From positions 1 to 53,257 of the IMG/VR virus record IMGVR_UViG_3300019887_000002: a DNA stretch of 53,257 nucleotides. The stretch is one strand, 5' to 3'. Positions 12,360 to 28,760 of the stretch are shown here, piece by piece. The notes under the pieces are model-generated. The model saw only the letters and a program-made list of their open reading frames with translations, made no database searches and was not told the DNA's origin. The position numbers and the translations under genes were made by a program. Origin of the DNA: a virus. How positions within the stretch are numbered: the first letter of the stretch is position 1; each line of letters opens with the position of its first letter.

Positions 12360-12457
12360 AGTCAACGCGCTGAGTCGAATCGAGGGTAGATATCTACGTA
12401 GCTAGTGGATAACTCTCGATCGACTCGCGTTGACTATAGTCAAAATTGAATTCAACG
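12360..12457. promoter_or_regulatory. Dyad element A
   Basis: Intergenic inverted repeat. The left arm AGTCAACGC-GCT-GAGTCGA-A-TCGAG (12360-12384) pairs with the right arm 12415-12435 apart from the extra GCT and one A. AGTCAA recurs outside the arms and the element ends in TGAATTCAACG. Element B at 28660 repeats this layout in the opposite orientation. Possible origin, recombination site or operator. Confidence 0.65.
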
Positions 12458-12483
12458 TATCGATGACGAAAGGAAAAAGCTCA

Positions 12484-12666
12484 ATGACGATGACCGTAGG
12501 GCAGTTGATTGAGAAGCTCACGAAGAAGGACCCAAACGCTCAGGTGATGCTGAACATCTATGAGCCTGGAGAAGAAGGGTTTGATTACGTACCTGATGCA
12601 GTGGGGAATTCACCAGAAGGTGTTGTTCAGATCACCGCACTGTTGAACCCTATTGAGGAGGACTAA
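12484..12666 (+). CDS. Hypothetical 60-aa protein
   Basis: ATG at 12484 is preferred for the AAAGGAAAAAG site before it; TTG 12430 and ATG 12463 are also in frame, but 12430 falls within the dyad element. Helix MTVGQLIEKLTKKDPNAQVML then an acidic beta part (DYVPDAVGNSPEGVVQITAL). The pattern resembles short phage proteins of unknown function with a TVGELIEKLS-type start. Directly followed by the next gene. Confidence 0.65.
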   Translation: MTMTVGQLIEKLTKKDPNAQVMLNIYEPGEEGFDYVPDAVGNSPEGVVQITALLNPIEED

Positions 12667-12864
12667 ATGTACACAGTGGAAGAAGTTGTCAAGATGCTCC
12701 GTGAGGGTAACCTGTCACGGATCGAAGGTGAAATGGCTATTGACGGTTACATGTTTAAGTGTACAGCTTACAACGTTGGTGACCAGATGATCAGGATTGA
12801 TCTGAAGGCTTCTCGTTCCCAAAGGTTGATGGATGAAGTTGAAGGAGGTAAGCTCGTTCCATGA
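12667..12864 (+). CDS. Hypothetical 65-aa protein
   Basis: ATG immediately after the previous stop, with GAGGAGGAC. N-terminal helix (TVEEVVKMLREGNLSRIEG) resembling the start of its neighbour, then beta strands (GYMFKCTAYNVGDQMIRIDL). ATGA overlap with the next gene. Not recognised. Confidence 0.6.
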   Translation: MYTVEEVVKMLREGNLSRIEGEMAIDGYMFKCTAYNVGDQMIRIDLKASRSQRLMDEVEGGKLVP

Positions 12865-13067
12865 CTACCAAACGACAGTACCAAGGATCGTTGATATTCG
12901 ATGCGAACGTTCTACGGTCAGCAGTAGTAATCCTCCAGAAGAGGTCCTCCAAGCCTGATGGCTTCTGGATGAAAACACTCTGTCGCGTCATACTTAACTG
13001 TGCCGACAAGATGACTGACGAAGCTGCGGTACTCATAGCAGATGCATTTGGGACTGAAGATGATTGA
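12861..13067 (+). CDS. Hypothetical 68-aa protein
   Basis: ATG overlaps the previous stop; GAAGGAGG is 8-15 nt upstream. Basic N-terminus, helical core (ANVLRSAVVILQKRS, MKTLCRVILNCADKMTDEAAVLIADAF). It ends inside the start of the helicase gene, which suggests coupled translation and perhaps a helper role. Confidence 0.6.
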   Translation: MTTKRQYQGSLIFDANVLRSAVVILQKRSSKPDGFWMKTLCRVILNCADKMTDEAAVLIADAFGTEDD

Positions 13068-14514
13068 CGAACGTCAGTTGACGGTTGTAGACAAACTCTA
13101 CCCATTTCAGTTAGAGGATGTTAGGAAGCTCGAAGATCAGACTGGTGTCCTCATTGCCAACGATATGGGGACAGGTAAGACGCCAGAAGCACTAGCTCGT
13201 GACTTCCTTCTTCGACAGAGACACCCAGGAGCGTTCAAGACTCTGATCGTCGCACCAATGACAGTGCTCCCTGCATGGGAGTTGCACCTCGACCAGTTCT
13301 GTCCAAGTTTGTACTACGTGACAGTCAACCCAAAAGACCGGGAAGGTTCGTGGCGACTCTTTCGAAGGACAGGGTCGGATGTACTCCTAACACACTGGGA
13401 TGCCCTTCGACTCATGCCGTGGCTACAGAGTATCATTTGGGACCATGTAATCGGTGACGAAATTCACCGAGCGAAGAACCGGAAGGCTCAACAGACAAGG
13501 TACTTCAAAGCCATCAAGGCAAAGTACAAGACAGGCCTCTCAGGTACGCCAGCTACGAATCAACCTCAAGATCTGTGGTCGATCCTTAACTGGCTTTACC
13601 CTCAGGATAAGTACTTCAAGAGTTACTGGAGGTTCTACAACACTCACGTCGACTTCAAGATCAAGTACCCGGAGGGCTACCACCAGATCGTAGGACCGAA
13701 GGACGAAGACATACTCCTGAATAAGATCCGGCCTTTCTACGCACGACGGAGGAAAAAGGACGTGCTGCCTGACCTACCTGACAAGTACTACACGCAGATC
13801 CCAGTGATCCTCGGACAACAGCAGCGCAAGCCTTATGATGACATGCGTCGAGAAATGCTTGCGTGGGTTGGAGAACATCAGGATCAACCACTCGAAGCCC
13901 CTGTGGTCATTGCAAGGATGATCCGGTTGCAGCAGCTTGCTGATGCGTACGCTTCACTCAGTGAGAAGCTGGTCAACAAGAAGGACAAGGAGACTGGAGA
14001 GGTAACCCAGGTGATGAAGACGATCGTCACCTTAACAGAGCCGTCAGCTAAGTTGGATGCCTGGCAGGAGAAGGTAGAAGAGGCACCGGACAAGTCGTTG
14101 GTCGTCTTCACTACTTTCAAAGGTATGGTTCACTTGGTATGTCAGCGACTAGACAAGATGGGTATCTCGTACGTGACACTGACAGGAGACACGCCGAATG
14201 ACGAGCGCGGTCAAGCAGTTGCAAGCTTTCAGGATGGGACCGCGCGAGTATTCGTTGGGACCATTCAAGCTGGAGGTATCGGCATCACACTTACCCGAGC
14301 TGATACGGCAGACTTCCTTGACCGTACATGGAGTCCAGCTCTCAATCAACAGGCTGAGGATCGGCTGCATCGTATTGGTCAAAAGAACGCGGTTGAGATC
14401 AGAGACTATGTGGCGCGTGATACGGTGGATCTCGGTAGACTCCAGCGTCTAGAGATGAAGTGGGATTGGATCAAACGTCTTCTCGGGGGATCCTTCTTAG
14501 TTGGAAACAAATAA
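13060..14514 (+). CDS. SNF2-family DNA helicase/translocase
   Basis: 484 aa. ATP-driven double-stranded-DNA translocase of the SWI2/SNF2 superfamily 2 type, in a minimal form common in phages. N-terminal lobe: YPFQLEDVRKL (Q-motif region), Walker A DMGTGKT (35-41), motif II DEIH (133-136), motif III SGTPATN. C-terminal lobe: VFTTFKGM, GTIQAGGIGITL, and arginine-finger motif QQAEDRLHRIGQ. No nuclease domain is attached. ATG 13060 is used; ATG 13042 is in frame but lies in the previous gene. It probably acts in replication start-up, fork restart or protein removal from DNA. Confidence 0.9.
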   Translation: MIDERQLTVVDKLYPFQLEDVRKLEDQTGVLIANDMGTGKTPEALARDFLLRQRHPGAFKTLIVAPMTVLPAWELHLDQFCPSLYYVTVNPKDREGSWRLFRRTGSDVLLTHWDALRLMPWLQSIIWDHVIGDEIHRAKNRKAQQTRYFKAIKAKYKTGLSGTPATNQPQDLWSILNWLYPQDKYFKSYWRFYNTHVDFKIKYPEGYHQIVGPKDEDILLNKIRPFYARRRKKDVLPDLPDKYYTQIPVILGQQQRKPYDDMRREMLAWVGEHQDQPLEAPVVIARMIRLQQLADAYASLSEKLVNKKDKETGEVTQVMKTIVTLTEPSAKLDAWQEKVEEAPDKSLVVFTTFKGMVHLVCQRLDKMGISYVTLTGDTPNDERGQAVASFQDGTARVFVGTIQAGGIGITLTRADTADFLDRTWSPALNQQAEDRLHRIGQKNAVEIRDYVARDTVDLGRLQRLEMKWDWIKRLLGGSFLVGNK

Positions 14515-14525
14515 TTCATCGTTTT

Positions 14526-14560
14526 CCCTCTAGATTGGGGACAATTAATTCATATATAAT
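14526..14560 (+). promoter_or_regulatory. Promoter, TAGATT-18-TATAAT
   Basis: TAGATT (14531-14536) and TATAAT (14555-14560), 18 bp apart. CCC (14526-14528) and GGGG clamp the -35. The -35 has a TAG variant, otherwise as in the family. Confidence 0.7.
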
Positions 14561-14602
14561 ATGATTATTAGGAAAACCAACTAGAGGAAAGGTGGAAAGC
14601 AA

Positions 14603-14998
14603 ATGGTTCAGTTTGTAGAAGTTGCTCCTGAGGACATTCCTAACTTACGGGAGACGCACCGGGGACGCGTGAGCTACCCAATCATCAAGGGCTTCATGGA
14701 GACGGGTCTAGCTTGTGTCAAGCTTGACAGGACGGGCATGCAGCAGAACATCCAGTACCTCACGTCGGTGCTCGGTGCCTACATCAGGAATCACAACCTG
14801 CCGATCAAGACGTTCGTTCGACAAGGTGAGATGTACCTGCTCCGGAAAGACCTCAACGCTGATGGTTCGGAGAACCCGAATTGGAAGGAAGAGGAGCAGA
14901 GCAAGAGTGGTGAGATACCTGTTGGAGTAGCTACTCCGATCAACGCTGAGACGGTAACCGAACGGTTCGAAGCTGAGCAGAACCTCACCACGAAGTGA
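14603..14998 (+). CDS. Hypothetical 131-aa protein
   Basis: ATG after AGAGGAAAGGTGG, ~40 nt leader. Residues 1-80 form a mixed alpha/beta unit with a likely DNA-contacting helix (QQNIQYLTSVLGAYIRNHNL, then PIKTFVRQGEMYLLRKDL). The C-terminal third is acidic and flexible. Third-position GC is somewhat higher than in its neighbours, hinting at good expression. No family recognised; the stop overlaps the DJ-1 gene start. Confidence 0.7.
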   Translation: MVQFVEVAPEDIPNLRETHRGRVSYPIIKGFMETGLACVKLDRTGMQQNIQYLTSVLGAYIRNHNLPIKTFVRQGEMYLLRKDLNADGSENPNWKEEEQSKSGEIPVGVATPINAETVTERFEAEQNLTTK

Positions 14999-15645
14999 AG
15001 AAGGTACTCATTGTTGTAGCCCGACGTTACAATGGCCATGAACTCTGGACCAGTTTAGGAGTCCTCCAGAAGTCAGGTGTCGGGTTCGAAGTGATCTCAT
15101 CAGACAAGTTGATCTGGGATGAGGTGACTGGACAAGCAAACACGATCGAACGGACCATTGATGATGTTGACAACCTCCCTGATGATGTTGACGGGTTGAT
15201 GGTCGTCTCAGGTAACATGAAGGACACGGAAGCGTACTGGACTAACGAACGGGTGCTTCGGTACGTGAGCGAAGCTTACGCAGCTGACCTGCCTATCGCG
15301 GCAATCTGTTGTTCGGTACCGACGATCAGGTCAGCTGCGTACAAGCGTCGAGTGTCCTTCTTCCCTCTGGTCCGCTCACGGATGCTACTAGGTGACGCAG
15401 GAGCGATCCTATCGAACCTGTCGATGGAAGTAGACGGAAGGTTGGTCACAGCTGAGAACCAGATGATGAGCCAGATGTGGGCAACCAACTACGTCGCAGT
15501 CCTTCGTGGTGAGGAGCCAGCACTCACATTGAGAGAGTCAGGGTTCGTTGCAGGACGTGGACGAGAACGCAAGCCCATTCCAGAGGTCGAACGTCTGAAG
15601 GCGTCAAGAAAAACCATCGTTGTCCCACTTGATGAGGGCCTCTAG
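14995..15645 (+). CDS. DJ-1/PfpI superfamily protein
   Basis: 216 aa, GTG overlapping the previous stop. Class I glutamine-amidotransferase-like flavodoxin fold. Glu16 in GHELW and the nucleophile elbow AAICCSVPTIRSA (Cys105 or Cys106) match the Glu and Cys of DJ-1/PfpI proteins. Family members are glyoxalase III/deglycase enzymes, chaperones, or peptidase-like hydrolases; the exact reaction cannot be read from sequence. C-terminal ~40 residues (AGRGRERKPIPEVERLKASRK) are basic and extra to the fold. Unusual in a phage; close to a deazaguanine pathway, but no direct link is shown. Confidence 0.75.
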   Translation: MKKVLIVVARRYNGHELWTSLGVLQKSGVGFEVISSDKLIWDEVTGQANTIERTIDDVDNLPDDVDGLMVVSGNMKDTEAYWTNERVLRYVSEAYAADLPIAAICCSVPTIRSAAYKRRVSFFPLVRSRMLLGDAGAILSNLSMEVDGRLVTAENQMMSQMWATNYVAVLRGEEPALTLRESGFVAGRGRERKPIPEVERLKASRKTIVVPLDEGL

Positions 15646-15658
15646 ACCGATATATAAT
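15624..15658 (+). promoter_or_regulatory. Promoter, TTGATG-18-TATAAT
   Basis: TTGATG (15629-15634) and TATAAT (15653-15658), 18 bp. CCC (15624-15626) and GGG flank the -35. It overlaps the 3' end of the DJ-1 gene and lies 11 nt before the next ATG. Confidence 0.75.
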
Positions 15659-15669
15659 AAAGGAAGACA

Positions 15670-15861
15670 ATGAATGAGCGACTAGTAGTTGACCTATCAT
15701 CAGTTCGGATCGTAGTAGACCTGTCTGACAGTCCACCTAGAACTTGGGAGGACAAGTTACTTGAAGGTAGCAAGTACCTGAAGTCAAGGTCGCTTCCTAT
15801 GAGCGACATCAGGGACATGACACCAGAAGAGCTTAGGGAGCACCTGTACCTTGACTACTAA
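15670..15861 (+). CDS. LVVDLS-motif protein, 63 aa
   Basis: ATG after AAAGGAAGAC, very short leader. MNERLVVDLSSVRIVVDLSD carries the VVDLS motif twice; the rest is charged and helical (RDMTPEELREHLYLDY). The 15851 product and the 8242 peptide begin alike, so these may be related paralogues or share a common docking peptide. Overlaps the next gene. Confidence 0.6.
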   Translation: MNERLVVDLSSVRIVVDLSDSPPRTWEDKLLEGSKYLKSRSLPMSDIRDMTPEELREHLYLDY

Positions 15862-16099
15862 CCGATTGGTAGTTGACCTCAGTGACTGTCGAGTTGCTGA
15901 CGAAGCGTACCGTTTAGCTCTTGAACTAATAAACGGTATCGGTGGCATCTTCAGTCCTCTCTGTCCTGACGATATTGCGGATGAACTACTTGATGAGTGG
16001 GAGGAAGACCTAGATCGGGATCCATTTTGGACAGGCGATCTAGCTGCACTAGTTACTGTCAACTCAATCTCATTCGTACATGACCGAGTTGTGTTGTGA
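15851..16099 (+). CDS. LVVDLS-motif protein, 82 aa
   Basis: TTG start within the previous gene; another TTG lies five codons in. Begins NRLVVDLSDCRVADEAYR, then an acidic helical body (DDIADELLDEWEEDLDRDPFW) and a hydrophobic C-terminal strand. The shared N-terminal motif with its neighbour suggests tandem duplication and divergence. Stop overlaps the next GTG. Confidence 0.55.
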   Translation: MTTNRLVVDLSDCRVADEAYRLALELINGIGGIFSPLCPDDIADELLDEWEEDLDRDPFWTGDLAALVTVNSISFVHDRVVL

Positions 16100-16263
16100 C
16101 TGACGACCGACCGTGTCCGTACTGTTGGCACCCAACGTCAGATGAGAAGCGTTTGCTCGAGGAAGAGGGTGTTCTAGTTGAACCAGAAGGAGGGTTTGCA
16201 CCGATACATCCACTATGCCAAGAGGCCTTAGACAGTTACCTCGAGGAGCACACAGGTGACTGA
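16096..16263 (+). CDS. Small CPYC protein, 55 aa
   Basis: GTG overlaps the previous stop. Contains CPYCWHPTSDEK and a later His/Cys pair (IHPLCQEALDSYLEEH), spaced to bind one zinc; the rest is acidic. Overlaps the start of the nuclease gene by 8 nt. Possibly an accessory of that enzyme. Confidence 0.55.
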   Translation: MTDDRPCPYCWHPTSDEKRLLEEEGVLVEPEGGFAPIHPLCQEALDSYLEEHTGD

Positions 16264-17311
16264 TCGGTACATCATCAGGACGTCTGAACGTCTCGCGTTC
16301 AAGAGATGTCGACGTCAATGGGACTACTCATCTGACAACCGTCAAGGATTGGAACCGATCAGGAATGCAGTAGCTCTCAACTTCGGGACGGCAGTCCATG
16401 CAGCGATGGCTGTCTACTACGATCCCAAGACTTGGGGTGACGACGTTCGAGTCGAGACGATTACTGCCTTTGACCTTTCAATCCTAAGCATGAAGGGTGA
16501 TGTACCTGACGACAAGTACCAGGAACTGAAGGACCTCGGTCGTGGAATGTTGAAGTACTACTTCATGTGGGCTCCTAGGTACGATCGAGGACAACCTATA
16601 TTAGTGGAGCAGGAGTTCGAAGTACCTATTCCAGATCCTTATGGTCTGAGCGACCAATTGTACTGGGAAGGCATTCCTGTTTTCTATCAGGGACGATTCG
16701 ACAAGCTGGAAGTTGATGACGGAGAGTACTGGCTTGACGACTACAAGACTTGTGTCTCATTCTGTGATCCAGAGATACTTGAACTGGATGAGCAGTGCAA
16801 GTCATATGCGTGGGCTGCACAGCTTCAACTAGGCATCCCGATTGTCGGTATCAAGTACACTGAACTGAGAAAGTCAGTACCTCATCCGCCCAAAGAGTTG
16901 GTACGTGGAGGGCTATCAGTTGCAAAGAATCAACTCACCACGTTCGAACTGTTTGTAGCGACAGCAAGGAGACTTGGATACCCACTCGAACCGTACCTTG
17001 ACTACTTGGACTTTCTCAAAGAGAGTCCCAAACAGTTCGTTCGTAGGTCTCGAAACCACTACAGTCAGAAGGAGTTAGAGAACCAAGGCATCCAGATTGG
17101 GTTGGAAGCCATCGACATGTTGAACGATCCATCAATCTACCCGTCACCAAATAGGATGGAGTGTCAACGATGTGCCTTCCGTACCCCTTGTCTTGCAGAG
17201 AACGATGGGAGTGATGTTGAGTGGATCCTTAATGACTCGTACCAGAAGAGGAAGGAACCACGCAATCTCATTCTCGTGGATGACGATGACTTCGAGTACG
17301 ACTCTCTGTGA
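16256..17311 (+). CDS. Cas4/RecB-like Fe-S nuclease
   Basis: 351 aa, GTG start. PD-(D/E)XK exonuclease: FGTAVH (His48), Asp149 in GRFDK, and the DDYKT motif (Asp162, Lys164). One N-terminal Cys (Cys18, FKRCRRQW) and three near the C-terminus (Cys303, Cys306, Cys312; CQRCAFRTPC) form the Fe-S clasp typical of Cas4 and AddB-type nucleases. Acts on DNA ends, most likely 5'-to-3' resection for recombination. It precedes a Sak4-like recombinase and a DUF669 ssDNA-binding protein, so the three form a recombination module. Acidic C-terminal tail (VDDDDFEYDSL). Confidence 0.85.
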   Translation: MTDRYIIRTSERLAFKRCRRQWDYSSDNRQGLEPIRNAVALNFGTAVHAAMAVYYDPKTWGDDVRVETITAFDLSILSMKGDVPDDKYQELKDLGRGMLKYYFMWAPRYDRGQPILVEQEFEVPIPDPYGLSDQLYWEGIPVFYQGRFDKLEVDDGEYWLDDYKTCVSFCDPEILELDEQCKSYAWAAQLQLGIPIVGIKYTELRKSVPHPPKELVRGGLSVAKNQLTTFELFVATARRLGYPLEPYLDYLDFLKESPKQFVRRSRNHYSQKELENQGIQIGLEAIDMLNDPSIYPSPNRMECQRCAFRTPCLAENDGSDVEWILNDSYQKRKEPRNLILVDDDDFEYDSL

Positions 17312-18699: not shown

Positions 18700-20877
18700 G
18701 TGCTGGTACCAAAAGTCGGGCTGTTCTTGAAGTTCGTTCTGGGAGACGCACAGGGAGTCCTGTGCGTCTCCCGACGTCCTGCAGGAACGAAACAGTTTGA
18801 AGAGGAATACTTCAACTACCCGGGAGAGATCAAGGCTACTCTTGAGTGGCTAGCCGCCTCGGAAAGAGGTTACGATCTATACTTCTGCCCAAATTTACTC
18901 GCTGGCAACAAGCGTGACAAGGCTAGTGTCCTTTCATGCGGATGTGCTTGGGCGGATCTCGATTCGTGTAAGCCAGAGAACATGCTAATTCCTCCTACCA
19001 TTGTCGTTGAAACTTCTCCCCAGAGATACCAAGGGTACTGGGTGTTCGATGAAGCTGTCGAACCTGCAGTAGCAGAGGACATCTCCAGACGCATTGCTTA
19101 CTACCATGCAGAACAGGGAGCAGACAAGAGTGGTTGGGATCTATCACAACTGCTTCGGATCCCATACTCGTACAACTACAAGTACGGTAACAACCCAGCA
19201 GCCATTCAGATTAGGAAGGCAACCAACGAGCATTACACTCCCGACTCCTTCTCAGTCTATCCACAGGCCGAGGGGTTTGAGTACACGGAGATTCCGTTTC
19301 CAACTGAATGGCCTCAGGAAGATGCAGATGCAACTCTGCAGAAACATCGTACACACTTTCATCCACGAGTCTGGGACCTATACAATACGGTGCCTGACGA
19401 GCACAAGTGGTCGACAGCACTCTGGCAACTAGAGATGTTGTTGTTCGAAGGTGGAATGGTTCGTGAGGAAGTGTTCATAGTTGCCAAGGCTGCAAAGTGT
19501 AACAAGTACGAACGGGATGGCAGATCAGACAAGCTCCTGTGGAAAGATGTATGTAGGGCGTGGGCAAGGGCAGTTGAGAAGACAAAAGCTATTGCCTTCG
19601 GTCAGTATGATCCGCCTCACGAACAAATGTTAACGGACGGAGAACGAGAATGGGTAACTTCGAACCTGAGCATCGTGGAACGTTACATATCGTGGGCTCG
19701 CCAACTTGGCGACGCTGCATGGCAGTATCATCAGGCAGGTGCTTTCATTACATTGTCCTCGCTATTAGCAGGTTCAGTTCGACTTCCTACATCCTATGGG
19801 ATGATGGTACCGAATTTGTGGTTTATGATTTTAGCGGATACAACTCTCACGCGGAAGACTACGGCGATGGACATCTCCGTCGATTTGTTGACAGAGATCG
19901 ACCCAGATATAGTGCTGGCGACGGATGGGAGTATCGAGGGCTTGATGACGTCATTGTCTATGCGTCCGGGTCAACCATCTTTGTTCTTACGGGATGAGTT
20001 CTCCGGCTTACTATCTGCTATGGAGCACAAGGACTACATGTCAGGTATGGCTGAGATGTTCACTAAGTTGTACGACGGTAAGTTCCAAAAGCGGGTACTC
20101 CGGAAGGAGATCATCGAGGTACGCGACCCCAGATTGATCCTGTTCGCAGGAGGTATCAAGACTCGCGTACAAGACATCTTGACGTACGAACAGGTTGCAT
20201 CCGGGTTCATTCCAAGATTCATCATTGTCAGTGCAGAAGCTGACATCGCTGCACTGAAGCCTCTAGGACCCCCAAGTGAACGATCGAACCTTGAACGTGC
20301 GAAGCTACTCTTTGAACTAACTAAGATCAAGAATCACTACTGCCAGACGACCGAAGTCAAAGTTGGTATGAAGGTCTTCCGTCAACCGAAGCAGTGGGAC
20401 GCACGGCTCACCGAAGAAGCGTGGGCGTTGTACAACAAGTACGAAACAACTACACTTGCAATAGCAAACAGAGCAGGACGTAAAGATGTCTTGACACCTA
20501 CAATGGACAGACTCTGCAAGAGTGGTCTGAAGTGTGCAGTCATCTTGGCTGCTGTCAGACATCTTGGTGACCAGATTGTTGTAGAGGAGCAAGACCTTGT
20601 ACGTGCATTCTACTACGTCGAACAGTGGAGAGGTTTCGCTACTGATTTGATTCAGAACATCGGTAAGTCGATCCAGGAGAGAGGATTGGAACAGATTGAG
20701 AGAGCTATAGTCAGATCACCCGGTGTAATGCGTAGTACATTGATGCAGTACTTCCATCTGACGGCAAGAGATACTGACATGGTACTCCAGACCCTAGAGC
20801 AACGTGGAACTATTTCTCGTGTCAAGAATGGTAGGTCAGAGACTTTGTGGCCAAGCAAACTACAGGAGGTCAAGTGA
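18700..20877 (+). CDS. Primase-helicase (AEP + DUF3987-like)
   Basis: 725 aa, GTG start four bases after the SSB stop. N-terminal archaeo-eukaryotic/RepB-type primase: GYDLYFCPNLLAGNKRDKAS and catalytic ADLD (85-88), then VVETSPQRYQGYWVFDEAV. Middle: DUF3987-like helicase ATPase with a degenerate P-loop ADTTLTRKTT (379-388; Lys and Thr kept, both glycines lost), LFLRDEFSG as Walker B, and a GASGFI-like VASGFIPRFI. C-terminal winged helix (RSPGVMRSTLMQYFHL, GTISRVKNGRSETLW). It should unwind the fork and lay primers for the polymerase at 24946. Confidence 0.85.
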   Translation: MLVPKVGLFLKFVLGDAQGVLCVSRRPAGTKQFEEEYFNYPGEIKATLEWLAASERGYDLYFCPNLLAGNKRDKASVLSCGCAWADLDSCKPENMLIPPTIVVETSPQRYQGYWVFDEAVEPAVAEDISRRIAYYHAEQGADKSGWDLSQLLRIPYSYNYKYGNNPAAIQIRKATNEHYTPDSFSVYPQAEGFEYTEIPFPTEWPQEDADATLQKHRTHFHPRVWDLYNTVPDEHKWSTALWQLEMLLFEGGMVREEVFIVAKAAKCNKYERDGRSDKLLWKDVCRAWARAVEKTKAIAFGQYDPPHEQMLTDGEREWVTSNLSIVERYISWARQLGDAAWQYHQAGAFITLSSLLAGSVRLPTSYGMMVPNLWFMILADTTLTRKTTAMDISVDLLTEIDPDIVLATDGSIEGLMTSLSMRPGQPSLFLRDEFSGLLSAMEHKDYMSGMAEMFTKLYDGKFQKRVLRKEIIEVRDPRLILFAGGIKTRVQDILTYEQVASGFIPRFIIVSAEADIAALKPLGPPSERSNLERAKLLFELTKIKNHYCQTTEVKVGMKVFRQPKQWDARLTEEAWALYNKYETTTLAIANRAGRKDVLTPTMDRLCKSGLKCAVILAAVRHLGDQIVVEEQDLVRAFYYVEQWRGFATDLIQNIGKSIQERGLEQIERAIVRSPGVMRSTLMQYFHLTARDTDMVLQTLEQRGTISRVKNGRSETLWPSKLQEVK

Positions 20878-21635
20878 CACAGACCCAGCGGACGTTCGCT
20901 CACCCTTCCGATCCTAAAGCAGTCGTCCTCCTCAGTGGAGGACTCGACAGTACCGTCCTCGCATACATGATGTCGGAGAAGTACAACTGTCACTTCCTCT
21001 CGTTCAACTACGGACAGCGACACAGCAAGGAAATCCTATACGCTGGGCAGACGGCTCGTCGGTTGGGCTCTCCTCACAACGTCATTGACTTGACGTCGCT
21101 AGGCCTCCTGTTGAAAGGCTCTGCACTGTCTGACCCCAACGTGGCTGTTCCAGAAGGCCACTACTCAGCAGACAACATGGCGATCACGGTTGTGCCCAAC
21201 CGCAATGCAACTATGCTCTCGTGTGCCACTGCTGTTGCCGTTGCAGAGAAAGCTTCCGTCGTCGCTTTCGCACCTCACTTTGGTGACTACCAGCAGTACC
21301 CTGATTGCAGGACTCGATTCGTTGACCGCCTCCAAGAGGCTCTGACGATCGGCAACGAGGGATTCATGCTTGGAGGTTTCCGTATCGAGGCACCCTTCAT
21401 TGCTATGTCAAAGGCGGACATCGTCACAATTGGTGAGAACCTTAAGGTTCCCTTCGCAAGTACCTGGAGTTGCTACAAAGGCGGAAGCGTTCACTGCGGT
21501 CGGTGTGGAACTTGTGTGGAGAGAGCAGAAGCATTCTGGGAAGCGCAAGTTGCAGATCCGACAACGTACGCCGACAACGAGTACTGGAGTCAAGTGACAG
21601 GTAAGTGGCCGATCATTCTTGGAGGATCCAAATGA
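20874..21635 (+). CDS. queC: 7-cyano-7-deazaguanine synthase QueC
   Basis: Converts CDG to preQ0 with ATP and ammonia. GTG 20874 is chosen over 20847 because ACAGGAGG sits just before it and it overlaps the primase stop. 253 aa, normal length. PP-loop SGGLDST (21-27), FNYGQRHSKEI, VPNRNA, and the zinc site Cys200, Cys208, Cys211, Cys214 (SCYKGGSVHCGRCGTC). First of four precursor-pathway genes. No amidotransferase domain is fused, unlike Gat-QueC of archaeosine-making phages. Confidence 0.95.
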   Translation: MTQTQRTFAHPSDPKAVVLLSGGLDSTVLAYMMSEKYNCHFLSFNYGQRHSKEILYAGQTARRLGSPHNVIDLTSLGLLLKGSALSDPNVAVPEGHYSADNMAITVVPNRNATMLSCATAVAVAEKASVVAFAPHFGDYQQYPDCRTRFVDRLQEALTIGNEGFMLGGFRIEAPFIAMSKADIVTIGENLKVPFASTWSCYKGGSVHCGRCGTCVERAEAFWEAQVADPTTYADNEYWSQVTGKWPIILGGSK

Positions 21636-22075
21636 CGATTGAAGTCGGTTCCATTCGTGTAATGCATAACGTGGAGATGGCTCACCGTCTCACGAAGACA
21701 CCTGGTAGGTGCCAGAACATCCATGGCCACAGTTGGAAGGTGATCCTCACACTAACTGGGGAGATCGACGAGAAGGGTGTACTAGTCGAGTTCGGTTACC
21801 TCAAGATGGCGTTCCGTGACTTCCTCAACACGAACTTCGATCACCACCTCCTACTCAACTGGACTGATCCAATGTTCAGGAATGTAATGCTAGAAGGTGC
21901 TCTCCTACCAGGTGCCACTCAAATGGAAGGAGAACCTACAACCGAGAACTTCGCCAAGCTCATCTACGACTGGGCTGTACAAGAGTTGATCGGCAAGATC
22001 GGGAACGTATATAGTGCACGAGTTGAAGTCTGGGAGACTGCAACAAACTGTGCTGTGTACCCTGCGGAGGGATGA
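21632..22075 (+). CDS. queD: 6-carboxytetrahydropterin synthase QueD
   Basis: Turns dihydroneopterin triphosphate into CPH4. ATG overlaps the queC stop (ATGA) after GGAGGATCC. 147 aa. Zinc ligands His18, His31 and His33 (AHRL, HGHSW), catalytic Cys27 (PGRCQNIHGH), FDHHLLL with Asp70/His71, and the C-terminal VEVWET glutamate. The substrate is the FolE product made by the enzyme encoded 1.2 kb downstream. Confidence 0.95.
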   Translation: MTIEVGSIRVMHNVEMAHRLTKTPGRCQNIHGHSWKVILTLTGEIDEKGVLVEFGYLKMAFRDFLNTNFDHHLLLNWTDPMFRNVMLEGALLPGATQMEGEPTTENFAKLIYDWAVQELIGKIGNVYSARVEVWETATNCAVYPAEG

Positions 22076-22076
22076 C

Positions 22077-22313
22077 ATGGCTAGAGTGTACGAGTTGATA
22101 CCAGGAGACAGAGTGAAGGTAGTGAGTATGTCAGGTACCTTCATAGCATCGTGTGACCACCCTCTCTTCGATGGTTTCATGTTGGTCATCTGGAGAATGG
22201 AAGATGGTACGTGGAGTCACGATGCTCTCCTCGCAACACAAGAGGTTGGTGAAGTTGTTCCAAACGAGGATCGGGTTGCAAACCTTCAACAGGCACTACT
22301 GAGGAGAGTTTGA
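22077..22313 (+). CDS. Hypothetical 78-aa protein in que operon
   Basis: ATG one base after queD, with CGGAGGGATG. Beta-rich, SH3-like pattern: RVYELIPGDRVKVVSMSGTFI, FMLVIWRMEDGTWSHDALL. No catalytic motif. Its place between queD and queE suggests a pathway accessory or a simple insertion; I do not recognise it. Confidence 0.65.
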   Translation: MARVYELIPGDRVKVVSMSGTFIASCDHPLFDGFMLVIWRMEDGTWSHDALLATQEVGEVVPNEDRVANLQQALLRRV

Positions 22314-23087
22314 ATGGAAGGCAATCGAGCATTCAAGAGAGGACACCTTCGTGTAAGTGGAGATGGCATCTTCTACACACTTCAAGGGGAAGGGATCACA
22401 CAAGGTATTCCAGCTATCTTCCTCCGTCTACACGAGTGCAACCTGAAGTGCAAGTGGGGCGAAACGATTTGTGACGCCTCGTACACGTGGGACAAGTCTG
22501 ACAACAGGTACTGGCAGGAGTCTCTAGACGTTCCTATGGAGTCTCTTACCCAAGACTTGTGGAAAGCAATGCAAGGTCACAACTGCTACAGAATCGTGAT
22601 CACAGGTGGCGAACCAATGATGCAGCGAGGAGCACTGGACACTCTGCTTCAAAATCTCTTCAGCCGGTTACCGACACCCTTTGGGAAGATTTGGGTAGAG
22701 TTTGAAACCAACGGGACGATTGCTCCCACCAAATTCATGGTAGAGAGCGCTAACAGGTACTTGGTTCAATTCAACGTCTCTCCAAAGTTGGCAACGTCAG
22801 GTAACGGTTCCTGGCGGGCACTCAAACCTGAAGTGTTGAAGGAGTACGCAGAAACAAACTCCTGGTTCAAGTTCGTGGTGGACGATGTCTTCGACGAGGA
22901 TGAGATCGTGGACATCGTGGAACAGGTACACTTGAATCCTATGCGTGTCATCCTCATGCCTCAGGGCGTTGATCCGATGACTCTGTGGAAGAACCAGCAG
23001 TTGTGTGCAGAGATCGCTATGAAGCGTGGATGGCGAATGACAACTCGTCTACAGATCGCTCTCTGGGGGAATACTCGTGGCACCTAA
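22314..23087 (+). CDS. queE: 7-carboxy-7-deazaguanine synthase QueE
   Basis: Radical-SAM enzyme that rearranges CPH4 to CDG. 257 aa, ATG directly after the previous stop. Substrate-binding TLQGEG, glycine-rich TGGEPM, EFETNGT and FNVSPK motifs are all present, as is the CDxxYTWD segment. The cluster motif reads C-N-L-K-C-KWGETI-C (CX3CX6C), with four residues more than the canonical CX3CX2C between second and third Cys. Other family motifs are intact, so it is probably active with an altered cluster loop. Confidence 0.9.
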   Translation: MEGNRAFKRGHLRVSGDGIFYTLQGEGITQGIPAIFLRLHECNLKCKWGETICDASYTWDKSDNRYWQESLDVPMESLTQDLWKAMQGHNCYRIVITGGEPMMQRGALDTLLQNLFSRLPTPFGKIWVEFETNGTIAPTKFMVESANRYLVQFNVSPKLATSGNGSWRALKPEVLKEYAETNSWFKFVVDDVFDEDEIVDIVEQVHLNPMRVILMPQGVDPMTLWKNQQLCAEIAMKRGWRMTTRLQIALWGNTRGT

Positions 23088-23253
23088 CCTTGGGCTAGCA
23101 ACAACTCGCGAACTCCTAACAGAACTTGCTGTGCGTATGGAAGTTACGCAGAACAGTACTAACGGTCGAGCTCTCGGACGACTGTGCCGAAATGCTCTGG
23201 AGCATCTCGCAAAAAACGTACTGGACTATCGGACAGTTAGTTCGGAGGGTTAG
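23077..23253 (+). CDS. Hypothetical 58-aa helical protein
   Basis: GTG inside the last codons of queE, after GGGGGAA; stop is followed at once by the folE ATG. All-helical (TRELLTELAVRMEVTQN, ALGRLCRNALEHLAKNVLDY). The tight overlap on both sides supports a real gene. Function unknown. Confidence 0.6.
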   Translation: MAPNLGLATTRELLTELAVRMEVTQNSTNGRALGRLCRNALEHLAKNVLDYRTVSSEG

Positions 23254-23823
23254 ATGGCAGAGTCATACCAACGTAGATTGACAGTACCTATGGCCGCAGA
23301 ACTCCTCAGGCGCTTATTGCCTGATGAGAACTGGGAAGACGAACATCTAAGGAGGACACCAGAACGCTTCGTGCAGATGTTGCATGAGCTTACAGACAGG
23401 ACACCGCATGAGTTCGACTTCACGATCTTCCCGAACGACGGGATTGACGAGATGGTCGTCGTTCAAGACATACCGTTCCGCTCACTATGTGCCCATCACT
23501 TGTTGCCATTCATCGGTGTGGCCCACATCGCATACATCCCAGACAAGAAGGTCGCGGGCCTGTCGAAGCTCCCACGCACTGTGCAGTACTGGTCGGCTGG
23601 GTTGTGGAGCCAAGAACGGCTGACAGAGAAGATCACCAGGTACCTAGAGGAGATGTTGGAACCGGTAGGCGTCGCGGTCGTCATGAAAGCGGAACACATG
23701 TGTATGTCACTCAGGGGTGCACAGGCACATGGCACTAAGACAACGACATCTAAAATGCTTGGAGTGTTCCTCGATCCATCTCGAGGTGCTCGACAGGAGT
23801 TCCTCAATCTGATTTCACATTAG
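23254..23823 (+). CDS. folE: GTP cyclohydrolase I
   Basis: First step of the deazaguanine route: GTP to dihydroneopterin triphosphate. 189 aa, ATG immediately after the upstream stop. Zinc ligands Cys79, His82 and Cys150 (CAHHLLPF and HMCMSLRG), plus IPDKKVAGLSKL and the TRTKTTTS-like HGTKTTTS end. Normal length for the type IA family. It makes the phage independent of host folate flux for DNA modification. Confidence 0.95.
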   Translation: MAESYQRRLTVPMAAELLRRLLPDENWEDEHLRRTPERFVQMLHELTDRTPHEFDFTIFPNDGIDEMVVVQDIPFRSLCAHHLLPFIGVAHIAYIPDKKVAGLSKLPRTVQYWSAGLWSQERLTEKITRYLEEMLEPVGVAVVMKAEHMCMSLRGAQAHGTKTTTSKMLGVFLDPSRGARQEFLNLISH

Positions 23824-23825
23824 GA

Positions 23826-23860
23826 CCCTCTTGATTTGGGACTAACTCCAGATATATAAT
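23826..23860 (+). promoter_or_regulatory. Promoter, TTGATT-18-TATAAT
   Basis: TTGATT (23831-23836), TATAAT (23855-23860), 18 bp. CCC-TC-TTGATT-T-GGG is the exact consensus of the clamp family. It lies right after folE and drives the dpdA-polymerase unit. Confidence 0.8.
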
Positions 23861-23880
23861 TAGAACATAGGAGGGAAGCT

Positions 23881-24216
23881 GTGAGGAAAGCGTTGACAAT
23901 GTTGCAAGATGACACTGAGTGGAATGACAGTTTCATTCAGGAGATGGCTAACCGTATGGCTGTCGGCCGTCATAGGTACGGAAGTATCTACGGTCCTGAG
24001 CACGTAGGTCGTGACATGATCCGAGCTATGCGCAGCCGGATTACTCACTACGAGGAAACAGGCAACACAGAAGTGCTCCGGGATATTGCTAACTTCGCGA
24101 TGATCGAAGCATCAGTTCCTCATCATCCGAAAGCACACTTCAAACCACTCGAGCATGAAGATACGCCCCCTGTGTATCGTGACGGCAAGCCCTGGACTTT
24201 GGAGAGCGAACGATGA
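23881..24216 (+). CDS. Hypothetical 111-aa helical protein
   Basis: GTG after TAGGAGGGAAG, 20 nt past the promoter. Helical: FIQEMANRMAVGRHRYGSIY, RDMIRAMRSRITHYEETGNTEVLRDIANFAMIEA. The paired helices with a DxxN-like end recall MazG-type nucleotide pyrophosphohydrolases, but the metal-binding ExxE pair is not clear, so this is weak. Between folE and dpdA; a nucleotide-pool role would fit. ATGA overlap with dpdA. Confidence 0.6.
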   Translation: MRKALTMLQDDTEWNDSFIQEMANRMAVGRHRYGSIYGPEHVGRDMIRAMRSRITHYEETGNTEVLRDIANFAMIEASVPHHPKAHFKPLEHEDTPPVYRDGKPWTLESER

Positions 24217-24959
24217 AGCTCGCAATCATCAGTCCTAACAGTCTGCTGGACAGGTATAGTCAGACGGACTACCACCTGATCCTTCCTGACATGCTCAAGG
24301 ACCCGGAGTACTACAGGTTCTACCACTCAGTTGCTAGGGGTTGGAAGGTACTAGACAACGGTGCACACGAAGAAGGAACGCGTTCACCTAACGAACTGTT
24401 CAGGATCGCTGAGATACTCCAAGTGGATGAGATCGTTGTACCTGATGTCATCGGTGACAGAGGTACCACTCTTGATATGGCAGCTAGCTTTGAGCCGCAT
24501 GCTTACGAGGCAAATCCACGGTATCAATACATGGGAGTCGTTCAAGGTTCATCTGCTGGTGAGGCGTGGGAGTGTCTCAGAGAGCTGACGGACTACTTCC
24601 CATGGATTAAGTCCATTGGTATTCCCCAACACCTCTGTAGGTTCGACCAACACATCCGTGTCGAGATGGCTGAAACAATCGATCAGTGGATGGGGCATCA
24701 GGTACACCTACTCGGCAACAATAGTAGGTGGCCTAGAGAGGTTAAGCACTTGTCGGATCTCAAATGCGTCGTTGGACATGACACGACGTACCCTGTCAAG
24801 ATGGGTCTGAGAGGCTACTACATCAGTGATAGGGAAGTACCAAACGTCCCAAGAGACCCCGACTACTTCGAGTTCTACCGAGATGTTGTTGAATTGCAAG
24901 ACTACGTCATCAAGGAGAACATTCGTGTCTACAAGTCCTGGTGCGATGGAACAACGTAG
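24213..24959 (+). CDS. dpdA: DNA 7-deazaguanine transglycosylase DpdA
   Basis: TGT-like base-exchange enzyme of the phage DpdA type; it swaps guanine in DNA for preQ0 or a derivative. 248 aa, ATG overlaps the previous stop. TGT-fold signatures: LDNGAHEEG (47-55), catalytic-Asp region VVPDVIGD (75-82), YMGVVQG (106-112) and SIGIPQHL. No zinc-binding domain of tRNA TGTs, which fits a DNA enzyme. With queC/D/E and folE it completes a dPreQ0 pathway. No QueF-like or amidotransferase step was seen. Confidence 0.85.
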   Translation: MKLAIISPNSLLDRYSQTDYHLILPDMLKDPEYYRFYHSVARGWKVLDNGAHEEGTRSPNELFRIAEILQVDEIVVPDVIGDRGTTLDMAASFEPHAYEANPRYQYMGVVQGSSAGEAWECLRELTDYFPWIKSIGIPQHLCRFDQHIRVEMAETIDQWMGHQVHLLGNNSRWPREVKHLSDLKCVVGHDTTYPVKMGLRGYYISDREVPNVPRDPDYFEFYRDVVELQDYVIKENIRVYKSWCDGTT

Positions 24960-27267
24960 ACATCCGCTCGCACTATGTGAGTCCTGTCCACTCAACACGG
25001 AGGAGTCTGTTTATGTCCCTTCAGACGGGCCCGACAGAGCCGAACTCGTCATCATCGGAGAAGCTCCCGGACGAGATGAAGCAAGGAGAGGACGACCCTT
25101 CACTGGACAGTCGGGCAAACTCCTTGATACAGTTCTTGCGCACAACAAACTGGAACGTTCCAGAATATTTGTCACGAATACGGTTCTCTGCAGAGACAAA
25201 GAGAATCGTACTCCAACAGCCACGGAGATCGGATGCTGCCTTCCCCGACTCATCGCCGAGGTCAAGAGCAGAAGCCCAAGCACTATACTTGCACTTGGTA
25301 ACTCAGCTGCGAAGACGATCCTCCGAACCACTGACGGAGTTACCAAGCTCCGAGTTGGACAAGGACACGAGTCCCCACTCTTTCCCGGAGTAAAGGTCAT
25401 AGCAACATTCCACCCAGCAGCAACAATGCGTCAGCCCGGAGCCTTCCCATCGATGGTAACTGACTTCGCGAAGGTCAGAGTCAAGGGAGACGTACGATGG
25501 ATCGATCCTGAGATCAGCATCGTGAACAATCCTGACAACGCCAATGTAGTACTTGACGCACTAGCAACCAAGCCCCGTATCACTATCGATATCGAAACAG
25601 GCAAAGAGAAGGACGAGGACTTCGACAGACCTGAGAACCTTCTCTGTGTCGGTTTCAGTTATCGTCCAGGGGCTGTAGTTGTCATCGGAGAGAGAGCCTT
25701 ACAGCATCCAGGAGTGAAGCAGCATCTAGTTGACATGCTCAACAGGCATCCTCACATTGGAGCACAGAATGGTAAGTCAGACCTCGGATGGCTTCGAGCA
25801 GGTACTCTTGCCTTCGACACAATGCTTGCATCGTATGCATGTGATGAGAGGAAGGGTATTCATAGCCTGGAATATCAAGGTACAGAACACCTCGGTGCTC
25901 CGAATTGGAAGGCAGAGTTCAAACGGAAACTTCGTACCAAGACCGACTACGGCAGTTGTTCTCGAGACGATCTCTACATCTACAACGGACAGGATTGTGT
26001 TGGAACTTGGTTGCTCGAAGACTATTGGGAGGCCCGACTTAGAGCTGAGGGTCTTACAGGACTTCATGAACACCTGGTGAATGTAAGCAACACACTCATG
26101 CCTGTGGAGCAAGAAGGTGTGAAGCTCGATCTGGCGTACAACCTTAGGTTACAGGCTGAGTACGATGAACTACTTGCCAGACTGATGATGAGCCTTAACA
26201 GGTGGATCGACAACCCAAGGTCGTGGCAACAGATCAAGAGAGCCCTCCTGGAACTACACGTACAGGTAGACAACACTCAAGCGGAAGAGATCCAAGCAGC
26301 CCTCGAGATGGCTATAGGACCTGAAGGTAACCAACTCGATCCTGTCGACAGAGCACAAGTCATCGAACTATGTACAGACCTACTAGAGTACAAGAAACAA
26401 TTCAAACAGGAGTCGACATATGTCAGAGGAATCCGGGAACGACTCGATCGCAACGGACGCATCTACGCCTCCTTCCTCATCCACGGCACAACCCATGGAC
26501 GACTTTCTTCTCGCAATCCGAACCTTCAGAACATTACTCGAGGGGACCGCATTCGAGGTCAGTTCGTCCCTGAAGAGGGTAACCTTTTCGTTCAGGCTGA
26601 CTATCGGACCATCGAGCTCCGAACACTAGCAGTTGAGTCAGGAGATGCTTATCTGTTCAGTGTACTGTCGGACCTTGAACGAGACATTCACAATGAGACA
26701 GGTGCTAGGTTCTATCACGACTTCTGGGATGTCACACCAGCAGCACGGAAGGAACGTCGCATCAGAGCCAAGGCTGTTGTGTTCGGACTCCCATACGGAC
26801 GTACTGCGTTCAGTGTAGCAGAAGAGTACGGACTAGCACCTCAAGTTGCAGAAGCTTACTACCGAGAGTTCTTCGGACTTATCCCTGGAGTAGTTGAATT
26901 CCAAAAGAGAGTCAAGCTCGACGTGTTGAGTGGCAAGGATCTCATAACACCTTTCGGAAGGCATCATCGGGTTCCTCTCATCACACCACAGAACCGCAAG
27001 GATGTAATCAAAGAGGCGTACTCGTTCTACCCTCAAAGCATTGCGAACGACATCAACCTGCATGCCATGATCAGATTGGTCAATGCAGGTGTGCACGTTC
27101 GCATTCCAGTACACGACTCATTGCTGGCAGAGTTCAGAGCAGAGGACGCTAAAGAAGGTGCACAGTTTATGAAGGAGACAATGGAACAGACAGCAGCAGA
27201 CGTGTACAACAAAGAGATGCCATTTCCTGTAGATGTAGAAATTGGTCCGAACTGGGGTGCAGTATGA
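24946..27267 (+). CDS. UDG-DNA polymerase A fusion
   Basis: 773 aa from the ATG inside the end of dpdA. Residues 1-180: family 4-type Fe-S uracil-DNA glycosylase with Cys11, Cys14, Cys82 and Cys97/98, motif GEAPG (38-42) and HPAA (156-159). Residues ~210-360: 3'-5' exonuclease with DIET (215-218), NGKSD (275-279) and YNGQD (346-350). Residues ~380-773: family A polymerase, motif A ADYRTIEL (551-558), motif B RAKAVVFGLPYG, motif C VHDS (722-725; usual HDE has Ser for Glu). No 5' nuclease. Replicative polymerase with uracil-removal arm; acting in cis on dU in template or pool is inference. Confidence 0.9.
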   Translation: MEQRRHPLALCESCPLNTEESVYVPSDGPDRAELVIIGEAPGRDEARRGRPFTGQSGKLLDTVLAHNKLERSRIFVTNTVLCRDKENRTPTATEIGCCLPRLIAEVKSRSPSTILALGNSAAKTILRTTDGVTKLRVGQGHESPLFPGVKVIATFHPAATMRQPGAFPSMVTDFAKVRVKGDVRWIDPEISIVNNPDNANVVLDALATKPRITIDIETGKEKDEDFDRPENLLCVGFSYRPGAVVVIGERALQHPGVKQHLVDMLNRHPHIGAQNGKSDLGWLRAGTLAFDTMLASYACDERKGIHSLEYQGTEHLGAPNWKAEFKRKLRTKTDYGSCSRDDLYIYNGQDCVGTWLLEDYWEARLRAEGLTGLHEHLVNVSNTLMPVEQEGVKLDLAYNLRLQAEYDELLARLMMSLNRWIDNPRSWQQIKRALLELHVQVDNTQAEEIQAALEMAIGPEGNQLDPVDRAQVIELCTDLLEYKKQFKQESTYVRGIRERLDRNGRIYASFLIHGTTHGRLSSRNPNLQNITRGDRIRGQFVPEEGNLFVQADYRTIELRTLAVESGDAYLFSVLSDLERDIHNETGARFYHDFWDVTPAARKERRIRAKAVVFGLPYGRTAFSVAEEYGLAPQVAEAYYREFFGLIPGVVEFQKRVKLDVLSGKDLITPFGRHHRVPLITPQNRKDVIKEAYSFYPQSIANDINLHAMIRLVNAGVHVRIPVHDSLLAEFRAEDAKEGAQFMKETMEQTAADVYNKEMPFPVDVEIGPNWGAV

Positions 27268-27422
27268 AAGATCCGAAGATCGTATGGACAGTCAAAGTTT
27301 CAACACCTCAGGAAGTGTACGGCGAGGTGTACAAACACAAGTGGATTGCACTAGTGGTATCTGCAATCCTCCTGAAGAAAAATGACATCGTAGTAGTCAG
27401 GAGGGAGTGGATCGATCCATGA
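27264..27422 (+). CDS. Hypothetical 52-aa protein
   Basis: ATG overlaps the polymerase stop (ATGA). Beta-rich short protein (KIVWTVKVSTPQEVYGEVYKHK) with a mildly hydrophobic WIALVVSAILL and a basic end. May be a small accessory protein; unrecognised. Confidence 0.6.
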   Translation: MKDPKIVWTVKVSTPQEVYGEVYKHKWIALVVSAILLKKNDIVVVRREWIDP

Positions 27423-27640
27423 AGTGTTCGAAGTGTAACAACCAGGCACGACGAAACAGCGAGTTCTGTTTCGATTGTGGACCGAAGAAGATAGCAACCA
27501 AGAGACACCGTAACCCGAGAAGGTACAGGCCTATTGAACAGGATAGGAGGCGGGCACCAGAGACACCTGTACCTATGATCGATCCACTTGTACCAAAGAT
27601 CATCGACAAACAGTTCCTACTAGGAAAGAGGCCGATATGA
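27419..27640 (+). CDS. Zinc-ribbon protein, 73 aa
   Basis: ATG overlaps the previous stop; a GTG four codons upstream is too close to the ribosome site. CSKCNNQARRNSEFCFDCG is a complete four-Cys ribbon at the N-terminus; the rest is basic and Pro-rich (KRHRNPRRYRPIEQDRRR). Nucleic-acid binding is likely. ATGA overlap with the next gene. Confidence 0.65.
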   Translation: MKCSKCNNQARRNSEFCFDCGPKKIATKRHRNPRRYRPIEQDRRRAPETPVPMIDPLVPKIIDKQFLLGKRPI

Positions 27641-28194
27641 GAATACTCAGGACACTTGTAGCTGGCACGATCATACTTGTTGGAGTTGCTACTGTTTCAA
27701 CATTAAAGATGGGCATCGATACATCACGCAACGTACCACCATCAGCCATTGCAATGATAGGTCCTGTTGCTCCTGGACCAACCGACAACCGAATCACACA
27801 AGCAAACATCCACGAGACCATCTGTACAAGTGGATGGACCAAAAAGGTTCGTCCAAACTCTATGTACACAGGTTTCGTCAAGAAACTAGAAATGGGCAAC
27901 GGAGGCGATGTTCCGTCTCCTGCAGCAGCCGGACGGATGTACCACGTAGTTGGCACTCATCTCAACCAACCTCTGAGCCTGTACGAACTGGATCACAACG
28001 TTCCACTCGAGTTGGGAGGTAACCCTGAGGACCCGATCAATCTCAAGCTCCAGATTTGGGATGGCCCTGATGGTGCTCACCTAAAGGACCATGCAGAGAA
28101 CAAAGTGCACGCTCTCGTGTGTAGCGGAGCAATGAGACTTGTAGATGGTCAGCAAGTGTTCCTGTCAGATAATTGGAAGCCGTACGCGAACTAA
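27637..28194 (+). CDS. Exported or membrane-tethered HNH-like protein
   Basis: 185 aa. N-terminal hydrophobic segment (LVAGTIILVGVATVSTL) acts as signal or anchor. The domain resembles secreted bacterial HNH proteins: ITQANIHETICTSGWTKKVR, YELDHNVPLELGG (Asp119-His120) and DPINL, with VENALH-like AENKVHALVCSG. Two Cys could pair. The catalytic His and the Asn of HNH are visible. A nuclease sited outside the membrane could attack incoming DNA or act on released host DNA; this is inference. Confidence 0.75.
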   Translation: MRILRTLVAGTIILVGVATVSTLKMGIDTSRNVPPSAIAMIGPVAPGPTDNRITQANIHETICTSGWTKKVRPNSMYTGFVKKLEMGNGGDVPSPAAAGRMYHVVGTHLNQPLSLYELDHNVPLELGGNPEDPINLKLQIWDGPDGAHLKDHAENKVHALVCSGAMRLVDGQQVFLSDNWKPYAN

Positions 28195-28204
28195 GGAGGA
28201 AGTA

Positions 28205-28324
28205 GTGGCGCCAGTACTCGAAATTGGTCACACAGCTATCAAGTTCGGATGGGGATTCCTAGTCATTCTAGGTTGGCTCACTTTCATGATCATCGGACTA
28301 TCACAAAGCAAAAAGGAGGACTAG
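28205..28324 (+). CDS. Single-helix membrane micro-protein
   Basis: 39 aa, GTG after AAGGAGGAAGTA. VAPVLEIGHTAIKFG then an aromatic hydrophobic helix (WGFLVILGWLTFMIIGL) and a charged KKED end. Its stop overlaps the next GTG. Function unknown. Confidence 0.6.
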   Translation: MAPVLEIGHTAIKFGWGFLVILGWLTFMIIGLSQSKKED

Positions 28325-28659
28325 TGGCAAGTAAGCAGATGCCTGTTGGCACAAAGAAACAGAACCCTAACGGGTACTGGAGGATCAAGTGCGAGGATGG
28401 CTCGTGGCGATTCCTGCATCACGTCAACATCGAGAAGGCTCTAGGTCGTTCTCTAGGTGCTGGTGAACGAGTTACCTTCAAAGATGGTGACAGAGGTAAC
28501 TGCAACCCTGACAACCTCGTGGTGCGAATCGTTGGCAATACATCTCCAGGTAAGAGACGTGCACATCTCGAAGCCAAGCTCCAGGAGATCGTTGCAGAAC
28601 TGGAGCACCTAGGAGTGACTGTCGAGTACACGTTGCTCGAAGAATCTAAAGCTTCGTAA
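28324..28659 (+). CDS. HNH-type homing-like endonuclease
   Basis: 111 aa, GTG overlapping the previous stop, AAAGGAGG upstream. GYWRIKCEDGSWRFLHHVNIE, LGAGERVTFKDGDRGNCNPDNL matches the small HNH proteins of phages (HH, then D..N..PDNL). C-terminal coiled helix (RRAHLEAKLQEIVAELEHL). It sits beside dyad element B; such enzymes nick or cut specific sites, but a link to the element is untested. Confidence 0.75.
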   Translation: MASKQMPVGTKKQNPNGYWRIKCEDGSWRFLHHVNIEKALGRSLGAGERVTFKDGDRGNCNPDNLVVRIVGNTSPGKRRAHLEAKLQEIVAELEHLGVTVEYTLLEESKAS

Positions 28660-28760
28660 CGTTGAATTCACGTTGACTCATATTCAAAGCGAGTCAAACG
28701 CGATTGGTCCAAGAGCTTACGCATTAGTAACGCTAGTTTGACTCAGCGCTTTGAATCACG
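28660..28760. promoter_or_regulatory. Dyad element B
   Basis: ATTCAAAGC-GAGTCAAAC (28682-28699) pairs perfectly with GTTTGACTC-(AGC)-GCTTTGAAT (28736-28756) apart from the AGC bulge. The outer block CGTTGAATTCA is at 28660-28670. Read on the minus strand it matches element A in layout, in bulge (GCT), in the distance between core blocks (44 versus 45) and in the outer block. Lies before the resolvase gene. Confidence 0.65.

Follow-up and report, generated by a model that had tools for sequence, protein, structure and literature searches.

Candidate iteron-type sites bracket the replication genes in a family of uncultured phages

We analyzed two related elements, A and B, in IMGVR_UViG_3300019887_000002, a single IMG/VR virus record classed linear, whose 53,257 bases taken whole are referred to here as the window. 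We favor the interpretation that A and B are iteron-type nucleoprotein sites on double-stranded DNA that belong to the phage replication system and would have an origin role, and we give this reading a probability of roughly 0.5. It is very probable that the two sites are protein-binding iteron arrays. They match one another, are oppositely oriented, flank replication genes and recur across a phage family, and so are likely docking sites for proteins of the phage itself that replicate or organize its DNA. We also count in favor of this interpretation that A and B bracket the genes for a primase, PolA, an exonuclease, a Sak4-like ATPase and an SSB-like protein.

12360..12459, plus strand: element A, an iteron array with a stem-loop
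28659..28756, minus strand: element B, with the same architecture as A

The inverted repeat of element A (12360-12435) reads AGTCAACGC-GCT-GAGTCGA / TCGACTC-GCGTTGACT and that of element B (28682-28756) reads ATTCAAAGC-GCT-GAGTCAAAC / GTTTGACTC-GCTTTGAAT. GAGTC and GACTCGC are 45 nt apart in A and 44 nt apart in B, and TGAATTCAACG follows at an equal offset in both. No other bulged inverted repeat in the window is as good: these two have 16 and 18 perfect pairs, the next best 14. They lie 16 kb apart in opposite orientation and are 74% identical over about 97 nt, with an E value of 3e-7 in a search of the phage's own record. The resemblance is beyond chance, and the two related elements are present as a preliminary description of this DNA had reported. 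Each is built from 5-bp repeats at the following positions, those of B being given in plus coordinates:

Element A: 12361 GTCAA, inverted; 12374 GTCGA, inverted; 12420 TCGAC; 12430 TTGAC; 12439 GTCAA, inverted; 12451 TTCAA, inverted
Element B: inverted at 28751-28755, 28738-28742, 28673-28677 and 28662-28666; forward at 28693-28697 and 28683-28687

The repeat unit in the window is thus TTGAC/TTGAA/TCGAC (TTGAC/GTCAA), and each element consists of about six repeats of 5-6 bp on a grid of about 11 bp, in two groups that are inverted and about 45 bp apart. Successive repeats are spaced by 13, 46, 10, 9 and 12 bp in A and by 13, 45, 10, 10 and 11 bp in B. Because the two groups are inverted, they also form a stem, and because the repeats are 13 bp apart in one arm and 10 bp apart in the other, that stem shows a 3-nt bulge. 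The preliminary description had treated this bulge as the defining feature, a view we abandon given that stem shape varies among relatives (the stem of element A in locus L008 contains a 2x2 internal loop, and others are perfect or carry different bulges); what is conserved is the set of repeats with its spacing.

Relatives were not found by every route. When IMG/VR was scanned for the exact pattern of A and B, the sole hit was a coincidence in a capsid gene, a Blast search with element A against cultured phages gave no match, and a search for relatives using the RuvC-like protein alone found none. Cultured phages provided distant homologues only. A search with the phage primase led to L008-L010 (the L008 primase is 49% identical), and an alignment scan of IMG/VR with the primase yielded 75 loci from an uncultured family of phages that share the gene order SNF2-exo-primase-PolA-HNH-RuvC. 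L008 carries its own inverted pair at both places; it shares GAGTC-N~48-GACTCGC, and its following hairpin is ATAGAC/GTCTAT where the window has TTGAC/GTCAA. More generally, the elements of relatives occupy these two positions, A upstream of the gene for the SNF2 helicase and B with the HNH gene on one side and the RuvC gene on the other. The preliminary description had named a lack of matching elements at these places in related phages as grounds for giving up its idea; they are there. It had also correctly placed B between an HNH protein and a RuvC-like gene:

13042..14514, plus strand: SNF2-type helicase gene, downstream of A after several small genes; conserved positional anchor of A
28249..28659, plus strand: HNH_3 endonuclease gene, directly upstream of B
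28793..29287, plus strand: RuvC-like resolvase gene (phrog_1981), downstream of B; conserved positional anchor of B

The label RuvC-like comes from the preliminary description, and the distantly related cultured phages Yappy and Amigo carry at this position a gene annotated as RuvC.

In most relatives the repeat unit is TTAGAC. Defining an array as a cluster of at least three TTAGAC within 130 bp, we counted 33 in the fetched loci. Zone B accounts for 21 of them and zone A for 12, and the 980 kb outside these zones contain none. For 15 of the 24 fully covered loci, a more tolerant score placed its two top segments exactly at A and B. Distances between repeats are banded near 11, 22, 33, 45, 57, 68, 78 and 90 bp, and the grid, which continues across the spacer or loop, has a period of 11.3 bp (R 0.77 against 0.23 for the null, reached in 0/500 trials, a certainty that is overstated since related sequences are not independent). 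The sole relative among bacterial and archaeal genomes, L091 on a UASB270 scaffold, is without a TTAGAC array. As a separate observation, a motif CCACAGGG(G) recurs near arrays or RuvC starts (L086 at 1619-1646 and 21145-21172; L037, L042 and L051 near B, in alignments).

Pairing in the stem was assessed by holding the repeats fixed and shuffling the other bases. The best stem exceeded that of these iteron-preserving shuffles by a mean z of 2.3 over 36 elements (4.7 for A and 4.2 for B of the window), and long stems of unrelated sequence occur in L061 B (20 bp, perfect), L037 B, L072 A, L042 A and B, and L040 B. The earlier claim that the arms change and pairing is kept therefore holds. A stem beyond chance is absent from the arrays L040 A, L044 A, L061 A, L075 A and both A and B of L086. 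About half of the elements show selection for pairing outside the repeats, and the repeats are the more constant part.

Stems of this kind raise the question of whether the elements work as RNA, and the preliminary description had offered a single minus-strand RNA as one option. A structured RNA (antisense, antitermination or processing site) made from the plus strand of A and the minus strand of B would account for the strong predicted single-strand folds (z=-6 against shuffles for A; z=-3 for the minus strand of B) and, weakly, for the excess of G.T over A.C mismatches on the gene strand of the stems (10:2 in A and 23:12 in B), a difference confounded by base composition. We nevertheless consider it highly improbable: (i) stemless arrays sit at the same places; (ii) the regular 11.3-bp grid runs across the spacer; (iii) A would be sense and B antisense to the neighboring genes, and some A/B pairs are co-oriented; (iv) Rfam 15 covariance models gave no match to the elements at E<=1; and (v) a promoter for a B transcript is not obvious on reading the sequence.

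A whole-record pattern search, mapped for 18 records together with G001, G002 and the window (all oriented so that the primase lies on the plus strand), revealed extra arrays outside the fetched loci and a total of 2 to 5 sites per genome. A and B are present in most mapped records, and several genomes have only these two. Part of the family has an array D about 10-13 kb before A and an array C about 9-15 kb after B; G006, G012, G016 (where D is weak) and G022 have four arrays, at intervals of about 11-19 kb. The 72.8-kb record L073/G018 has five TTAGAC arrays, as against two to four in records of about 50 kb. A and B are oppositely oriented in most genomes, and in G006 and G012 the order is D-, A+, B-, C+; in L085/G021 and L086/G022 A and B have the same orientation. 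The window itself has a possible third site at the position of station D in its relatives, intergenic, 11.4 kb upstream of A and beside the window's most AT-rich block:

985..1060, plus strand: possible degenerate D-like site, with TTGACTGTTCACTTTGACT at 989-1007 (0.06 expected)

Thus, of the earlier proposal of a DNA site forming an origin pair, the protein-binding DNA site stands and the simple pair does not, as C and D arrays exist in several genomes.

These maps also bear on the idea that each site is a hairpin of the RSF1010-ssi type, i.e., a strand-specific stem-loop targeted by primase, with A priming leftward and B rightward synthesis. The best structural match of the primase is RepB', the long stems covary, A and B are opposite in most genomes and the window has a conserved tail 3' of the stem, all of which would suit such a mechanism. 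Because stemless and same-orientation arrays were found, however, we downgraded the strict form of this idea, and since the 11.3-bp grid also crosses the loop we regard it as distinctly unlikely.

It is similarly unlikely that the arrays are dispersed centromere-like or genome-organizing sites that a coiled-coil winged-helix protein bridges for segregation, compaction or concatemer handling. The spread of four arrays over G006, G012, G016 and G022, with alternating orientation in two of them, is consistent with this, a protein combining a winged helix and a coiled coil could plausibly act as a bridge, and N15, pSM19035, RK2 and pMF1 are known to have centromere sites that are dispersed (PMC3235114, PMC5016525). 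Against it, several genomes have only A and B, no ParA-type ATPase was detected in 21 records (14/14 controls were positive; ParM and TubZ were not searched), and there is no integrase in these records and hence no sign of lysogeny by that route. The same 21 records contain no tyrosine or serine recombinase. Site-specific recombination between A and B, as sites of an invertible segment, has accordingly next to no probability, even if related inverted sites 16 kb apart invite the thought: throughout the family, the genes between A and B keep one order and one orientation. With the cognate proteins absent, recombination (or resolution, as the preliminary description had suggested) and ParA-type segregation were both rejected.

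With regard to the protein presumed to bind the arrays, we consider one or both of two candidates most likely, the second through its C-terminal winged helix:

9791..10168, plus strand: winged-helix protein with a C-terminal coiled coil, 126 aa; candidate iteron-binding protein
18700..20877, plus strand: primase-helicase; candidate initiator or primer enzyme

The first is encoded upstream of A in 20/20 compared genomes; its structural model (predicted local distance difference test, pLDDT, 89.4) shows a winged helix and a C-terminal helix, with weak PDB matches to MarR/IscR-type regulators and plasmid Rep initiators. In the window its wing reads GGS and the repeat TTGAC, a single suggestive instance of wing residues changing along with the repeat. 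The second combines a RepB'-like archaeo-eukaryotic primase, an MCM-like AAA+ domain (DUF3987) and a C-terminal winged helix, the last recognized from the secondary structure of the model and the conserved C-terminus. Its model (pLDDT 90.8) matches RSF1010 RepB' best (3h20, E 4e-9; 3h25, the RepB' complex with initiator DNA, E 6e-7) and then MCM helicases, and it has a profile match to RepB_primase (2e-5). No SF3-type helicase domain was found in it; DUF3987 is a predicted helicase (PMC5862659), and the best helicase matches are to MCM AAA+ proteins.

The regulator-like matches of the smaller protein open another possibility, namely that the arrays are transcriptional operators, bound by a winged-helix regulator ahead of several operons with looping between the repeat groups; A would then serve the replication genes, B those from RuvC onward, and C and D others elsewhere. 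A, B and several inspected C and D arrays do lie largely in intergenic gaps, and for the omega protein of pSM19035 such arrays can be operators and centromeres at once (PMC5016525). We think this explanation rather unlikely, as C sits between leftward structural genes, the orientation of the elements is independent of gene direction, and the recognizable sigma-70-type promoter repeats of the window lie elsewhere, with none at A or B. The latter form a 48-nt family, D3, of eight rightward promoter-like repeats (CCCTCTTGATTTGGG-n-TATATAAT); L048, L050, L055 and L058 have a comparable repeat (ACTCTCCTTGATATTTCC-n-TATAGAAT).

Window positions 1720, 2933, 5027, 6472, 10770, 14526, 15624 and 23826: D3 repeats

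Returning to the origin interpretation, a plausible scenario is that a phage DNA-binding protein loads on the repeats and melts or restructures the site, that the primase-helicase is then recruited, and that leading-strand synthesis would start outward from A and B. Once occupied, the site may in addition hold up forks close to the RuvC gene and thereby assist the change to concatemer replication, a role of the kind proposed for oriL/oriR of SPP1 (PMC3485210, PMC6316719). Several results weigh against this scenario. GC skew gives no origin signal, since it changes at the gene-strand switch and tracks gene direction only, and neither A nor B has a pronounced AT-rich unwinding element, the minimum-GC windows nearby being only mildly low. 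Some genomes have 3-5 arrays, one of them among structural genes, which would fit a regulatory or segregation role as well, and the co-oriented pairs noted above are not predicted by strict one-site-per-strand priming. More divergent members of the family have no TTAGAC array, nor do the distant cultured phages Yappy and Amigo have any such array. Finally, divergence of either candidate binder predicts the presence of an array no better than does that of control proteins.

A broader proposal, which we put forward only tentatively, is that two to five phased iteron/stem-loop stations, mostly in opposite or alternating orientation and served by a previously undescribed winged-helix/coiled-coil protein and a fused RepB'-like primase/MCM-like helicase/winged-helix enzyme, constitute an undescribed multi-origin or fork-control design. 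In any case, a family of uncultured phages of about 50 kb gains concrete cis-acting sites and two candidate trans-acting proteins, and the repeat grid shows that a duplex protein-binding array can mimic a bulged RNA hairpin. If the sites are origins, the replication origins of the family would be predictable from sequence.

As to the wider gene context, a CHAP endolysin gene lies upstream of A:

11387-12166: CHAP endolysin gene

The interval between A and B encodes a PD-DEXK exonuclease, the AAA_24 ATPase (Sak4-like), the DUF669 SSB-like protein and the primase-helicase. It also holds a fusion of a family-A DNA polymerase to a uracil-DNA glycosylase domain (24826-27267) and QueC-like, QueD-like, radical-SAM and GTP-cyclohydrolase-I genes (20847-23823), the latter group suggesting 7-deazaguanine modification of the phage DNA. 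Elsewhere, there are two terminase-like proteins (29271-30752 and 48439-49860), of which the portal-adjacent 48439-49860 is the better TerL match, and a 51-nt repeat array at 30840-31345 within the leftward gene 30749-31378.

The two origins of Bacillus phage SPP1 lie 12-13 kb from each other and contain repeats to which its initiator, G38P, binds; SPP1 also encodes an SSB, an exonuclease, a recombinase and a Holliday-junction resolvase (PMC3485210, PMC6316719). As in SPP1, two distant, non-identical repeat sites (16-20 kb apart here) occupy fixed positions throughout the family, some genomes having more than two. Unlike the sites described here, which are inverted, stem-forming and without a clear AT-rich element at A or B, those of SPP1 have direct repeats and an AT-rich unwinding element; oriL lies inside gene 38, and a DnaB-type helicase and the host primase are used. 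Dispersed centromeres such as those of N15, pSM19035 and pMF1 likewise place several iteron-type sites over one replicon, but here ParA is lacking, within the search described above. In RSF1010, each strand has one stem-loop at which RepB' primes (PMC4434180); the opposite orientation of two stem-loop sites and the RepB' fold of the primase domain are shared, whereas the ssi sites are 40 nt long and read as single strands, and here the arrays are about 100 bp long with phased repeats, some have no stem and some A/B pairs are co-oriented (G021 and G022), so that the family does not consistently show a strand-specific hairpin at each site with one on either strand. Similar in protein architecture are P4 alpha and ORF904 of pRN1, each of which joins a primase, a helicase of the hexameric type and a winged helix at the C-terminus. 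These winged-helix initiators use repeats (P4) or a large stem-loop (pRN1) (PMC4234260), although their cis sites have no homology to A or B and the primase of P4 alpha is of the Toprim type, in contrast to the RepB'-like primase and MCM-like helicase modeled here. The phage family described here would thus link stem-loop recognition, as in RSF1010 and pRN1, with iteron recognition, as in P4 and SPP1, in a single system whose MCM-like helicase and RepB'-like primase are fused.

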